Shown: in pieces, positions 34,527 through 40,570 of the stretch
Layout: each line of letters begins with the position of its first letter
How positions within the stretch are numbered: position 1 is the first letter of the stretch
NCBI GenBank assembly: GCA_949487855.1
Contig: CATAMV010000053.1
Coordinates: 1-55,338 of the forward strand
Direction: 5' to 3'
From: Bacteroidota bacterium
GTDB lineage: Bacteria; Bacteroidota; Bacteroidia; Flavobacteriales; Flavobacteriaceae
DNA length: 55,338 nucleotides
Program-made: the position numbers and the translations under genes
Notes under the pieces: model-generated
What the model saw: only the letters and a program-made list of their open reading frames with translations
Database searches by the model: none
What the model was told of the DNA's origin: nothing

Positions 34527-37108
34527 ACGACGAGCAGCACCTTTCTTCAGACGATCAGTTGATTCGCGTAACCGGCATGTACAAAGATTGGTTTTTAGAC
34601 TATGCTTCGTATGTGATTTTGGAACGTGCCGTACCGGCTATTGAAGATGGTTTTAAACCTGTTCAGCGTCGTATTCTACATTCCATGAAAGACCTAGACG
34701 ATGGACGCTACAACAAGGTTGCCAACGTTGTGGGACACACCATGCAGTACCACCCTCACGGCGATGCTTCTATCTCAGATGCCATGGTGCAGATTGGACA
34801 AAAAGATTTGCTTATTGACATGCAAGGAAACTGGGGAAATATCCTAACAGGAGATTCGGCAGCAGCTTCTCGATACATAGAAGCACGACTATCCAAATTT
34901 GCTCTCGATGTGGTATACAGCCCAAAAGTTACGCAGTGGCAACTTTCCTATGACGGACGTAAAAAAGAACCAATTCACCTGCCTGTAAAGTTCCCCATGC
35001 TGCTAGCGCAAGGCGGCGAGGGTATTGCCGTAGGGCTTTCTACCAAAATTTTACCCCATAATTTCAATGAACTCATAGATGCTTCTATCAAGCACTTACA
35101 AGGCAAACGCTTTACGCTTGTGCCTGATTTTCCAACAGGTGGCGTTATGGATGCCGACAACTATAACGACGGGCTTCGTGGGGGTAAAATACGCGTGCGT
35201 GCACGAATTAATCAACAGGACAAACAAACCTTGGTGATTTCTGAAATTCCATTTTCAACCACCACGTCTTCGCTAATAGACTCCATTCTAAAAGCCAACG
35301 AAAAGGGAAAAATTAAAATTAAAAAAATTGAAGATAACACTGCGGCAGCTGTTGAAATTAAAATCATACTTCCGCCCAATGTTTCTCCCGACAAAACCAT
35401 AGATGCCCTTTTTGCTTTTACAGCGTGTGAAACCTCTATTTCTCCTTTAGGCTGTGTCATTGAAGACAACAAACCCAATTTTATTGGCGTGTCTGAAATG
35501 CTGCGCCGTTCCACCGACCACACATTAGAACTCTTGCGTTCTGAGCTTGAAGTAAAACAGGAAGAACTGGAGGAGCAATGGCATTTTGCATCCTTGGAGC
35601 GTATTTTTATTGAAAACCGTATTTATCGAGATATTGAAGAAGTCGAAACATGGGAAGGCGTGCTCAAAGCCATTCATAGCGGTTTGGCACCGCATACCAT
35701 TAATTTGAAGCGCCCTGTTACAGATGATGATGTGGTGCGCTTAACGGAAATTCGCATTAAGCGTATTTCAAAATTTGATTTAGACAAAGCGCAACAGAAA
35801 ATTGTGGCACTCGAGGCAGAATTAGATCAAGTAGCATATAATTTAGCCCATATTGTAGATTTTGCTATTGATTATTTTAAACGCCTTAAAAAAACCTACG
35901 GCAATGGAAAAGAACGCAAAACAGAACTTAGCGTTTTTGCAGATGTAGATGCCCGGAAAGTCGTTATTCGAAACACAAAATTGTATGTAAGCAGAGAAGA
36001 AGGTTTTGTGGGGACGTCACTGCGCAAAGATGAATACGTTGCCGATTGTGCCGATATTGATGATGTGATTGTATTTACTGCCGAAGGTAAAATGATGGTT
36101 ACCAAAGTAGATACCAAAACCTTTGTGGGTAAAAATATCATTCACGTTGCGGTATTTAAAAAGAAAGATACGCGTACCATTTACAACATGATTTATCAAG
36201 ACGGTCGTGGCGGTACATCCTATATAAAGCGCTTTGCCGTTACAGGCGTTACTAGAGACAAACACTACGACCTAACAAATGGAAAAGCGCAATCCAAAGT
36301 GCATTATTTTTCTGCAAATCCAAATGGAGAAGCCGAAATTGTAACGATACATCTAAGGCAAAGCGGTTCTATTAAAAAATTGAAATGGGATTTGGACTTT
36401 GCCGATTTGGTCATAAAGGGAAGGGGAGTCCGTGGAAATACGGTAACCAAATACGCCATCAAGCGAGTAGATTTAAAAGAAGTGGGTGTTTCTACACTTA
36501 AACCGAGAAAGATTTGGTACGACGAAACTGTTCAACGTCTTAATGCTGATGAGCGCGGACGCCTAATAGGTGCATTTAAAGGAGAAGATCGAATACTGAT
36601 TGTTACACAATCGGGGAAAGTAAAAACCCAAATTCCAGATTTGAGCATGCATTTTCCACCCGATATGTTGCTTTTGGAAAAATGGGAGCCTCAAAAACCG
36701 CTTTCTGCCGTTTATTTTGACGGAGCAAAAGAGCGCTACTTTGGAAAACGTTTTCTTATTGAATCTCCAGATAAAGAAGAGCAGTTTGTACAAGAAGGTG
36801 CAAAAATCAAATTAGAATGGTTTTCTGCCGATTGGCGCCCCGTATGCACGCTTCATTTTACAAAGCCACGTGGCGGCGAGGCAAAAGCAGCACAACGGCT
36901 GGAGTTTGAAGACTTTATTGCACCAAAAGGAATAAAGGCCATCGGGAACCAGCTTACTACAGATAAGTTAAAACGCATTGAAGAAAACGAACCTTTACCA
37001 TATACGCCAGAACCTGAAACTGAGGCAGTTGATATTGAAGCAGAAGTGGAAGAAGTAAAACCCTCAGAAAGCGATGACGGCGAAGGACAGATTAGTTTAG
37101 AACTTTAA
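34523..37108 (+). CDS. parC: DNA topoisomerase IV subunit A
   Basis: 861 aa; '[29 protein letters not shown]', '[18 protein letters not shown]'; 4-nt overlap with parE. Confidence 0.95.
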
Positions 37109-37884
37109 CTTTTTGCTTTGCGTTTTCTAAAACGCATATTCAGAAATTCCACCAACAGCGAAAAAGAAATTGAAAAGTATAAATACCCCTTAGGAATGGC
37201 GCCAACACTTGTTCCTAGTACTTCTAAATGTGACAGGTGCGCACCCTCCGCAATAAGCATAAATCCAATCAAAATAAGAAATGAAAGTGCCAAAATTTGC
37301 AAGGATGGGTGTTTGTGAACAAAGCGCGTAACGGGATGCGCAAACCACATCATCGCTACAATGGAAATAACGACAGCGGTAACCATAATCCAAAGTGCCC
37401 CATCTATGCCGCTGGTCATGCCCACGGCAGTCAGAATTGAATCAACAGAGAACACCGCATCAATCAGAATAATCTGAAGCAAGATTTTCCCCATTGTGTT
37501 TGCAGTTTTATTTTTTACCTGTTCGCTTTTTTCACCCGCATGGTCAATCTTTTCATGAATTTCTTTGGTGCTTTTGTAAAGCAAAAAGAGTCCCCCTGCA
37601 AACAAGATAAGCGATTGACCATTTACTGCCACATAAATCATCGAATTTGAAATTTCAAAAAGGGAGGATTGCATGGCAATAAGCCAAGAAATAGCAAAAA
37701 GTAAAATTATACGCAGTACAAGAGCAAGAAGAAGCCCAATATTGGTTGCGCTTTTTCTTTTTTCTAGTGGGAGTTTCCCTACTACAATGGAGATAAACAC
37801 GATGTTATCTATTCCTAGAATAATTTCCAAAAAAGTAAGAGTCAACAGCGAAGAAATCGACTCGGGAGTAAACAGAAAATCCAT
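37105..37884 (-). CDS. TerC family membrane protein
   Basis: 259 aa; 'LEIILGIDNIVFISIVVGKLP', 'IILIDAVFSVDSILTAVGMT'. Confidence 0.93.
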   Translation of the reverse strand: MDFLFTPESISSLLTLTFLEIILGIDNIVFISIVVGKLPLEKRKSATNIGLLLALVLRIILLFAISWLIAMQSSLFEISNSMIYVAVNGQSLILFAGGLFLLYKSTKEIHEKIDHAGEKSEQVKNKTANTMGKILLQIILIDAVFSVDSILTAVGMTSGIDGALWIMVTAVVISIVAMMWFAHPVTRFVHKHPSLQILALSFLILIGFMLIAEGAHLSHLEVLGTSVGAIPKGYLYFSISFSLLVEFLNMRFRKRKAKS

Positions 37885-38262
37885 TTAATTACGCAGTTTA
37901 GTTACCACACCACGTTGTTTATTGGCACTGTCGCCAACCAAATTATATTCAAAGGTGTACGTGTTGTCTTTAGTTGTGAGAATTTTCATGTGCACCGCCT
38001 TTGAATCTTGATAGCTAAGGGGGCGTAATTTTTTCACAATACACTCACAGTCATTCAGCCAGCGCACAGATGAGCTATCCACTCTATTTAAATAATAATC
38101 TACTTCAATACTATCGGTACGTGTGAATTTTGTAGTCAACGTATCGCCCAACACCGTAGAAGTAAAGGAAAAAGTTCCAGTCTGAAAATCGCTACAATTG
38201 CGTTGTGGCGAAAAACAAGCGGAAACAGACAAAAACAATATACTAATCGTGGCAATTCTCAT
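37885..38262 (-). CDS. hypothetical lipoprotein
   Basis: 125 aa; lipobox 'LFLSVSACFS'. Confidence 0.65.
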   Translation of the reverse strand: MRIATISILFLSVSACFSPQRNCSDFQTGTFSFTSTVLGDTLTTKFTRTDSIEVDYYLNRVDSSSVRWLNDCECIVKKLRPLSYQDSKAVHMKILTTKDNTYTFEYNLVGDSANKQRGVVTKLRN

Positions 38263-38274
38263 ACCCCAAAAATA

Positions 38275-38682
38275 TCACTTTTTATTGGTGTATGTGCTAC
38301 AAGTACCATCGGTATAAAAAACGGTAACACGTTCCACTTCTTTTACATCGTGAATGCCGTCTTGTGGAATACGATGTTGAAGCGGCTGTTGAGGGTGCTC
38401 AATTTCAGGCTGATCTGTTTGAATGTCTTGTTTGGGTGGGAATAATGTTGAAACATCAGCTTGAATATGTTCCTGCGTATCTTCTTTACCAAGAAGCAAC
38501 CAATCGGAATGTAGGGTAGGGAAGGCGTGAAGCACTTTTAAGACAAAATCCAGGCTCGGCTTGTTTCTTCCCGATAAGATGTGAGAAATAGAAGATCGCT
38601 GTACCCCAATTCGATCCGCAAATGCGGCAGAACTAAGTTCACTATCGTCAATTACTTTTTTAATACGCTCAATCAAAGACAT
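38275..38682 (-). CDS. XRE-family helix-turn-helix transcriptional regulator
   Basis: 'IERIKKVIDDSELSSAAFADRIGVQRSSISHILSGRNKPSLDFVLKVLHAFP'; start taken at ATG 38682 (MSLIERIKK). Confidence 0.9.
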   Translation of the reverse strand: MSLIERIKKVIDDSELSSAAFADRIGVQRSSISHILSGRNKPSLDFVLKVLHAFPTLHSDWLLLGKEDTQEHIQADVSTLFPPKQDIQTDQPEIEHPQQPLQHRIPQDGIHDVKEVERVTVFYTDGTCSTYTNKK

Positions 38683-38794
38683 GGTTACATTTGTATATTT
38701 AGATTTGTAAATCACTGATATTTTCAAATGTAAGCAATTATTTATGATGTTTTATATTAAACTAATACTCCCTTAAATAATGCTTAACTGATAC

Positions 38795-38926
38795 GTTTAC
38801 AACGCTTTAATATAACATAAAATTTAGCAACAAAAAAATGTATCCAGTTGTAAACAGTAGCGTTTTAAAATTGTTTACAAAAATAACTTCAGTATGTATA
38901 TAATTGTAAACATGTTAAAGTTTACA
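38795..38926. promoter_or_regulatory. cluster of TTGTAAAC/GTTTACAA operator-like sites
   Basis: Sites at 38795-38802, 38848-38855, 38873-38880, 38904-38911, 38920-38926; includes palindrome TGTAAAC-atgttaaa-GTTTACA. Confidence 0.7.
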
Positions 38927-38936
38927 TTTGCAAACG

Positions 38937-40028
38937 ATGAATGATTTCTTAGCCATACAACCTCAGTTAAAATCGCAAAAAATTCAAGGGCGTTATATAA
39001 CACACAATGCGATTGAGTCAATTGTAATGCAGTTTCCCAACAAACTCATAGGAACTAGTGTAGAAACCCGTCCAATTCAAGCCATTGATATCGGTAGTGG
39101 TCCTGTTAAAGTTTTGATGTGGTCACAAATGCATGGCAACGAATCCACAGCGACTAAGGCTCTTGTAGATGTTTTGTGTTATTTACAGCAAAATCCTGCT
39201 TTTTTAGCAGCTTTTACGCTTAAGGTGATTCCTATACTCAATCCAGACGGTGCAGCTGCTTACACGCGTGTAAACGCCAATGAAGTGGACCTTAACAGAG
39301 ATGCCATAGAGCAATCACAGCCAGAATCAAAGTTGCTTGTAGATTTGTTTCATACGTTTATGCCTGATTATTGCTTTAATCTTCACGATCAGCGTACTAT
39401 TTTTGGAGTACATGATAATCCCTGCATGCTTTCGTTTCTTTCCCCTGCTGCTGATGAAACCAAAAAGCGCACAACTGCACGTGAAAAGGCGATGGGTGTT
39501 ATTGGCTATATAAAGAACGCCTTACAAGAACATATTCCAAATCAGGTTGGAAGATATGACGATACCTTTAATCCAAATTGTATGGGTGATTTTTTTACGC
39601 AACAGGGAACACCTACACTCTTGTTTGAAGCTGGGCAAGTAGGACAAGACTACGTACGTTTAGAAACACGAAAATGGTATGGTTATTCAATTTTAAAAGC
39701 ATTAGAGAGTATTTCACTAGCGCTTTATATGCCTGCCATCTACCAAGAAATCCCAGAAGTAGCAAAGTCTTTTGTAGATGTATTGATTAAAAATATAAGC
39801 AGTGGGAATAGGACTGTTGATATTGCTCTACAATACGTAGAAGTGTTAAAAAATGATGAAATAATTTTTGTGCCTATTTTGCACAAAATGGGGGAGTTAG
39901 CTAGCCTAAATGGACACAAAACAGTCGATGTTTCTGGAAAAAACATCCGTTTTTCAGAGGAATTGGCACTTGGTTCTAATGCACTTGAATTGTCAAAATT
40001 GTTAAATTTAACACAATATTCACATTGA
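38937..40028 (+). CDS. M14/succinylglutamate desuccinylase-like zinc peptidase
   Basis: 364 aa; 'LMWSQMHGNESTATKALVDVL', 'NPDGAAAYTRVNANEVDLNRDA', 'CFNLHDQRTIF'; start placed at ATG 38937. Confidence 0.88.
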   Translation: MNDFLAIQPQLKSQKIQGRYITHNAIESIVMQFPNKLIGTSVETRPIQAIDIGSGPVKVLMWSQMHGNESTATKALVDVLCYLQQNPAFLAAFTLKVIPILNPDGAAAYTRVNANEVDLNRDAIEQSQPESKLLVDLFHTFMPDYCFNLHDQRTIFGVHDNPCMLSFLSPAADETKKRTTAREKAMGVIGYIKNALQEHIPNQVGRYDDTFNPNCMGDFFTQQGTPTLLFEAGQVGQDYVRLETRKWYGYSILKALESISLALYMPAIYQEIPEVAKSFVDVLIKNISSGNRTVDIALQYVEVLKNDEIIFVPILHKMGELASLNGHKTVDVSGKNIRFSEELALGSNALELSKLLNLTQYSH

Positions 40029-40090: not shown

Positions 40091-40570
40091 ATGACTAAAT
40101 TCAAGCTTGACGATATAGATCATCAAATTTTAGATATTCTTATCGATAATATGCGAACTCCTTTTACGGATATCGCAAAACGTCTTTTAATTTCTGCTGG
40201 TACGGTGCACGTTCGTGTTCGTAAAATGGAAGAGGCGGGAATCATTAAAGGATCTTCACTGGCTTTAGACTACACAAAAATGGGGTATTCTTTTATCGCG
40301 TATGTGGGGATTTATCTAGAAAAAACGCATCAAACAAAATATGTGTTAGAGCGTCTTCGTGAAATTCCTTTCGTAACAGTTGCGCACATCACAACAGGTA
40401 AGTTCAATATTTACTGCAAGTTACGTGCAAAATCTACTGAACATGCAAAAGAAATTATCTTTAAAATTGATGACATTGATGGTATTTTACGGACCGAAAC
40501 AATGATTTCTTTGGAAGAGAGCATCAATGACAAGAAACGTCTTATGCACACTATTTTTAACGACCTATAA
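40091..40570 (+). CDS. Lrp/AsnC family transcriptional regulator
   Basis: 159 aa; 'LDDIDHQILDILIDNMRTPFTDIAKRLLISAGTVHVRVRKMEEAGIIKG'. Confidence 0.95.
   Translation: MTKFKLDDIDHQILDILIDNMRTPFTDIAKRLLISAGTVHVRVRKMEEAGIIKGSSLALDYTKMGYSFIAYVGIYLEKTHQTKYVLERLREIPFVTVAHITTGKFNIYCKLRAKSTEHAKEIIFKIDDIDGILRTETMISLEESINDKKRLMHTIFNDL

Follow-up and report, generated by a model that had tools for sequence, protein, structure and literature searches.

A conserved XRE regulator and divergent M14 peptidase gene in Flavobacteriaceae with palindromic operators overlapping both predicted promoters

The genes for a small XRE-family regulator and an M14-family metallopeptidase lie back to back in a Flavobacteriaceae genome, and the region between them carries an array of 16-bp palindromic operators, with one operator on the −7 element of each promoter. 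On the comparative evidence presented below, the XRE protein is very probably a dedicated local repressor of its own gene and of the divergent peptidase gene, acting through these operators. A first-pass annotation of this DNA had suggested that the XRE protein controls a divergent, autoregulated switch, and the conservation of the sites, the way they track the XRE gene and their overlap with the −7 elements of both promoters support that suggestion at the level of sequence comparison. We judge the locus to be a real switch of an ordinary kind, an autoregulated repressor with a divergent target, that has an unusually wide conservation.

Results and Discussion

The window is the whole stretch of 55,338 nucleotides that was analysed. 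The genes considered first are the following.

38278–38682, minus strand: XRE regulator coding sequence, 135 aa, with its stop codon at 38275–38277
38937–40028, plus strand: M14-family metallopeptidase coding sequence, 363 aa
37885–38262, minus strand: small lipoprotein-like gene, 12 nt 3′ of the XRE gene

The regulator belongs to the XRE class by its curated Pfam score (HTH_3, 34.7 bits, cut-off 23). Its AF2 model consists of an N-terminal five-helix HTH domain (residues 1–60, pLDDT ca 90), a disordered linker and a C-terminal β-hairpin. The best Foldseek matches include P22 c2, the 434 repressor and 434 Cro, with target TM-scores of 0.75–0.83 and E-values of just 0.003–0.006, and the model has the five-helix fold of the 434 and P22 repressors. 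A C-terminal S24 or λ CI-type oligomerisation and autocleavage domain is found neither by Pfam, which returns HTH models only, nor in the AF2 model. There are weak matches to HigA and HipB models, which would fit a toxin–antitoxin module with the XRE protein as a HigA-like antitoxin. However, all antitoxin matches are below their curated cut-offs (24.5 bits vs 47.7 for the HigA equivalog TIGR02607), the two genes are divergent, and the M14 gene persists without the XRE gene in 17 examined loci. This reading was rejected, and we regard it as extremely improbable.

The peptidase is recognised by Pfam Peptidase_M14 (37.4 bits, cut-off 21.6), and the zinc and catalytic residues of the M14 pattern (HxxE, R, H, E), namely H66, E69, R121, H150 and E231, are invariant in 24 sequences. 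Its model shows a carboxypeptidase fold with an extra C-terminal β region and matches the Burkholderia M14 structure 4b6z. The M14 motifs are shared with the cytosolic carboxypeptidases of this family and with the murein tripeptide amidase MpaA, but the sequence match to the latter is weak, far below the NCBIfam equivalog cut-off (31.6 bits vs 157).

The lipoprotein-like gene is a neighbour that is also kept in many relatives, and it is probably co-transcribed with the XRE gene. Together with a gene for a TerC-family membrane protein it fills positions 37105–38262 on the XRE strand, the gaps being 12 and 0 nt, and because of this arrangement both genes may be co-regulated with the XRE gene.

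We now consider the 254-bp intergenic region (38683–38936), in which the following sites were assigned. Full operators have no strand, and the PWM scores refer to the matrix described below.

38683–38698: weak XRE-proximal operator GGTTACATTTGTATAT in the XRE 5′ leader, 3 mismatches, PWM 9.2
38697–38712: weak operator ATTTAGATTTGTAAAT, 3 mismatches, PWM 8.0
38720–38735: weak operator ATTTTCAAATGTAAGC, PWM 5.5, containing the XRE −7 element TACATTTG
38795–38802, minus strand: isolated half-site GTTTACAA
38840–38855: operator GTATCCAGTTGTAAAC, 2 mismatches, PWM 15.6
38873–38880, minus strand: half-site GTTTACAA in the place of a third operator, 23 bp from the next operator
38896–38911: operator 2 GTATATAATTGTAAAC, 2 mismatches, PWM 10.3, covering the −33 region
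38920–38935: operator 1 GTTTACATTTGCAAAC, 1 mismatch, PWM 22.9, containing the peptidase −7 element

The region holds five exact copies of the heptamer TGTAAAC/GTTTACA, compared to a mean of 0.19 in 5000 dinucleotide shuffles (maximum 3), and every 254-bp stretch elsewhere in the window holds at most one. The five near-identical sites and two degenerate copies described in the first-pass annotation could all be located: TTGTAAAC or its complement is present at 38795–38802, 38848–38855, 38873–38880 and 38904–38911, GTTTACA at 38920–38926, and the degenerate strings TTGTAAAT and TGTAAGC at 38705–38712 and 38729–38735, respectively. The two inverted pairs that had been proposed, with spacers of 17 nt (38848–38880) and 8 nt, are present as text, but the alignment of the family's intergenic regions shows that each of them joins halves of neighbouring operators. 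The dyad that emerges from this alignment is instead the 16-bp palindrome GTTTACA-NN-TGTAAAC, of which the sites at 38795 and 38873 are half-sites. When the region is scored as GTTTACANNTGTAAAC, six sites are found at three or fewer mismatches, vs 0.11 in the shuffles, and none of 2000 shuffles reaches six.

The frequency matrix of the closest operator copies is almost invariant at most positions, which in part reflects selection, since the copies were picked at one mismatch or less. The first 71 loci, from which the PWM was derived, form part of the larger scored set as well. Operator 1 is the best motif match in the window's own genome and the only near-consensus operator in the window, the sites on the XRE side being weak (PWM 5.5–9.2). 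An operator near the XRE start codon, the counterpart of 38683–38698, is kept across the family, as is the 24-bp distance from the start of operator 2 to that of operator 1. A search for known RNA elements in the intergenic region gave no Rfam match up to E = 1.

The arrangement is found in almost all of the family. In most of the 80 peptidase relatives that were retrieved first, an XRE relative adjoins the peptidase gene divergently at a distance of 250–340 bp. The set was later enlarged with loci from further genomes to 226 XRE loci, of which 215 are divergent to an M14 gene, giving 201 distinct intergenic regions. The XRE gene is present in 287 of 301 Flavobacteriaceae genomes and is single-copy in each genome listed. 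The 201 regions contain 4.17 sites each; dinucleotide-shuffled versions give 0.041, and M14 coding sequence of equal length gives 0.020. Conservation at orthologous loci, which the annotation had named as a check on its proposal, is thus observed: 182 of these 201 unique regions carry at least three sites.

The sites could in principle belong to another factor and lie beside the XRE gene by chance. One candidate is the product of the Lrp/AsnC gene located at 40091–40570, just downstream of the M14 gene. Another is a regulator of the BlaI/MecI type, as BlaI operators are TACA/TGTA dyads (TACA-NN-TGTA) similar to those seen here. The distribution of the sites speaks against this. In eight genomes with the M14 gene but without a close XRE relative, no cluster is present upstream of M14 and at most one weak site is found there; nine further XRE-free M14 loci whose upstream sequence is complete likewise show one weak site at most. 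Conversely, in two order-level genomes, G203 and G204, where XRE is present and M14 was not detected, two operators lie upstream of each XRE gene and are the sole matches in the genome at one mismatch or less. In a third genome, G118, the two genes are ca 30 kb apart, with operators at XRE and none at M14. Since the cluster is absent without XRE, retained without a detectable M14 gene and stays with XRE in G118, the sites belong to XRE.

Outside the locus, moreover, the motif occurs only at the control rate. Among 22 genomes, 36 of the 60 matches at one mismatch or less fall within the XRE–M14 region, as mapped from their coordinates, and the remaining 24 equal the number given by a reversed-pattern control (24). 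In the window's own genome, three of the eight matches at two or fewer mismatches are in this region, and the control gives six. The regulator therefore appears to be dedicated to one locus, and a wider regulon was rejected on the same count. A BlaI/MecI-type binder was also rejected, as no Penicillinase_R (BlaI) protein was found in the window's genome. Binding by any other factor is, taken together, very unlikely.

Two side observations were made in these genomes. In G203, a 6-phosphofructokinase-like gene takes the divergent position opposite the XRE gene, and an operator followed by a terminator-like hairpin lies between the two. Several XRE-free Flavobacteriaceae genomes have a second, longer M14 paralog with an open frame of ca 470–496 aa.

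Turning to the promoters, the feature needed here is the following.

38923–38930, plus strand: peptidase promoter −7 element TACATTTG, predicted +1 near 38935, leader of ca 2 nt

The annotation had placed a consensus −7 element under the last site, immediately upstream of the peptidase ATG (38937), and a second one on the minus strand ahead of the regulator. Both are indeed there, as TACATTTG at 38923–38930 and at 38732–38725, and both agree with the Bacteroidota σA element TAnnTTTG. If positions are numbered as in F. johnsoniae, where the TAnnTTTG element has its G at −5 (PMC6847099), the peptidase +1 is predicted near 38935, two bases 5′ of the ATG. Only a minority of flavobacterial mRNAs are leaderless (5.5% in F. 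psychrophilum, PMC9723704). In the relatives, gene starts were projected from alignments and the leader lengths were not relied on. In the −33 region there is a TTG at 38904, followed by 16 nt to the −7 element; the −33 motif is itself weak in F. johnsoniae (PMC6847099).

The comparison of the operators suggests how the two functions are combined. In 143 loci, the peptidase-proximal operator has a central TT in every case and contains TAnnTTTG in 142, while the next operator upstream, operator 2, contains it in 35 of the 143. The corresponding operator on the XRE side, at the place of 38720–38735 in the window, has a central AA instead, and TAnnTTTG reads toward XRE in 95 of 95. From these counts, the palindrome appears to be tuned at its two central bases to yield a correctly directed −7 element.

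As an operator lies on the −7 element of each promoter, a bound repressor should block the polymerase, and the overlap at both promoters indicates that repression would be steric. In the mechanism that we propose, the XRE protein would bind the GTTTACA-NN-TGTAAAC operators between its own gene and the M14 gene, and a dimer on the −7-containing operator would block RNA polymerase at the peptidase promoter and at the XRE promoter. Some signal, possibly acting via the C-terminal β-hairpin or the linker, would then release the repression. An alternative is that the XRE protein binds the same sites and activates the peptidase gene, or has mixed roles. Some XRE proteins do activate, and operators are also present upstream of the promoter core. 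However, at both promoters it is the −7 element itself that the most conserved operator covers, where a bound protein would be expected to block polymerase, and we consider this reading unlikely.

The spacing of the operators is also regular. In the family set, the distance between adjacent operators is 24 bp in 153 cases and 34–36 bp in 192, and neighbours at these distances probably bind cooperatively. To describe the separation of the XRE-side and peptidase-side clusters, one fixed distance was taken per locus, from the operator at the XRE start to the second peptidase operator. In 109 loci it clusters at ca 237, 248, 259 and 268–270 bp, with a best period of 10.74 bp (R = 0.70; the maximum of a smoothed null is 0.26). 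The fitted period depends on the operator pairs used and ranges from 10.7 to 11.7, and the helical repeats of lac loops in vivo are 11.1–11.6 bp (PMC1762422). When all operator pairs were tested for phasing at 10.5 bp, the result was weak; the signal became clear with the fixed pair. Mapped on a protein tree, these distances require at least 19 changes of class. For 18 path-disjoint pairs of species that differ by at least 5 bp, the differences are mostly 9–13 and 18–21 bp (p = 0.005 against a simple uniform null).

Between the two clusters there is one more conserved feature.

38754–38797, no strand: AT-rich middle block, family-conserved, score 6.7 in the window vs a family median of 19

The block is mostly 143, 152–153 or 162–164 bp from the second operator, in phase with the clusters. 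It is not an operator and has no Rfam match, and it is possibly a site for another protein.

Distances in approximately whole helical turns suggest that the clusters face each other, the simplest reading being that they would touch through a DNA loop. We give the loop itself roughly an even chance, because related species are not independent and the fitted periods vary with the operators chosen. The contrary view, which concerns the looping step only and to which we give close to an even chance, is that the helical spacing results from local cooperative binding or shared ancestry. The 24-bp and 34–36-bp steps within the clusters already give quasi-periodic distances, layouts are common to relatives, and no loop-forming domain is recognised in the XRE protein. 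Nevertheless, the distances remain quantised when a single fixed inter-cluster value is taken for each locus, with at least 19 changes of class on the tree, the middle block shares the phase, and in G203 and G204, where no M14 gene was detected, a distal operator is retained at 179 and 191 bp from the proximal operator. A more specific version of looping is that a small XRE protein lacking a CI domain closes a loop between clusters separated by ca 180–260 bp, possibly together with a third protein at the middle block, with helical phase kept family-wide, and that the loop still serves the XRE promoter where the peptidase is not detected. This we put forward tentatively, at somewhat less than an even chance.

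Comparison with Known Systems

The closest parallel is with the phage repressors of the λ class (λ OR, 434, P22 c2), where several palindromic operators of similar size likewise govern divergent promoters along with the gene of the repressor itself, and whose P22 and 434 members, including 434 Cro, are nearest to the XRE protein in HTH fold. The centre-to-centre spacing of λ OR1 and OR2 is 24 bp, equal to that of the present array. In contrast to the phage systems, the locus is chromosomal and near-universal in a bacterial family, its regulator lacks the S24/CI C-terminal domain, no phage genes are seen adjoining it, and the partner is a metallopeptidase.

As in the general class of autoregulated XRE/HTH_3 repressors, a small HTH_3 protein has a divergent target and operators over both promoters. 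The present locus differs in that each promoter has one operator merged with the Bacteroidota TAnnTTTG −7 element, and in the helical phasing of the two clusters, which many species preserve. Distances that change by helical repeats are shared with looping of the Lac/AraC type, while looping would here follow from comparative spacing only.

Conclusions

The XRE–M14 pair appears to form part of the core of Flavobacteriaceae as a single-copy regulatory module, apparently undescribed in the searchable literature: in a limited search of mostly open papers, we found no description of GTTTACA in connection with Flavobacterium, or of XRE with M14. The module offers an exactly defined operator, what appears to be a one-locus regulon, and a direct opportunity to test promoter–operator fusion in a phylum with promoters unlike those of the E. 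coli type. The spacings recorded across species amount to an experiment by evolution on helical phasing, and so bear on DNA looping in vivo. Finally, the inducing signal, if found, would help to show what this widely conserved M14 peptidase does in the cell.
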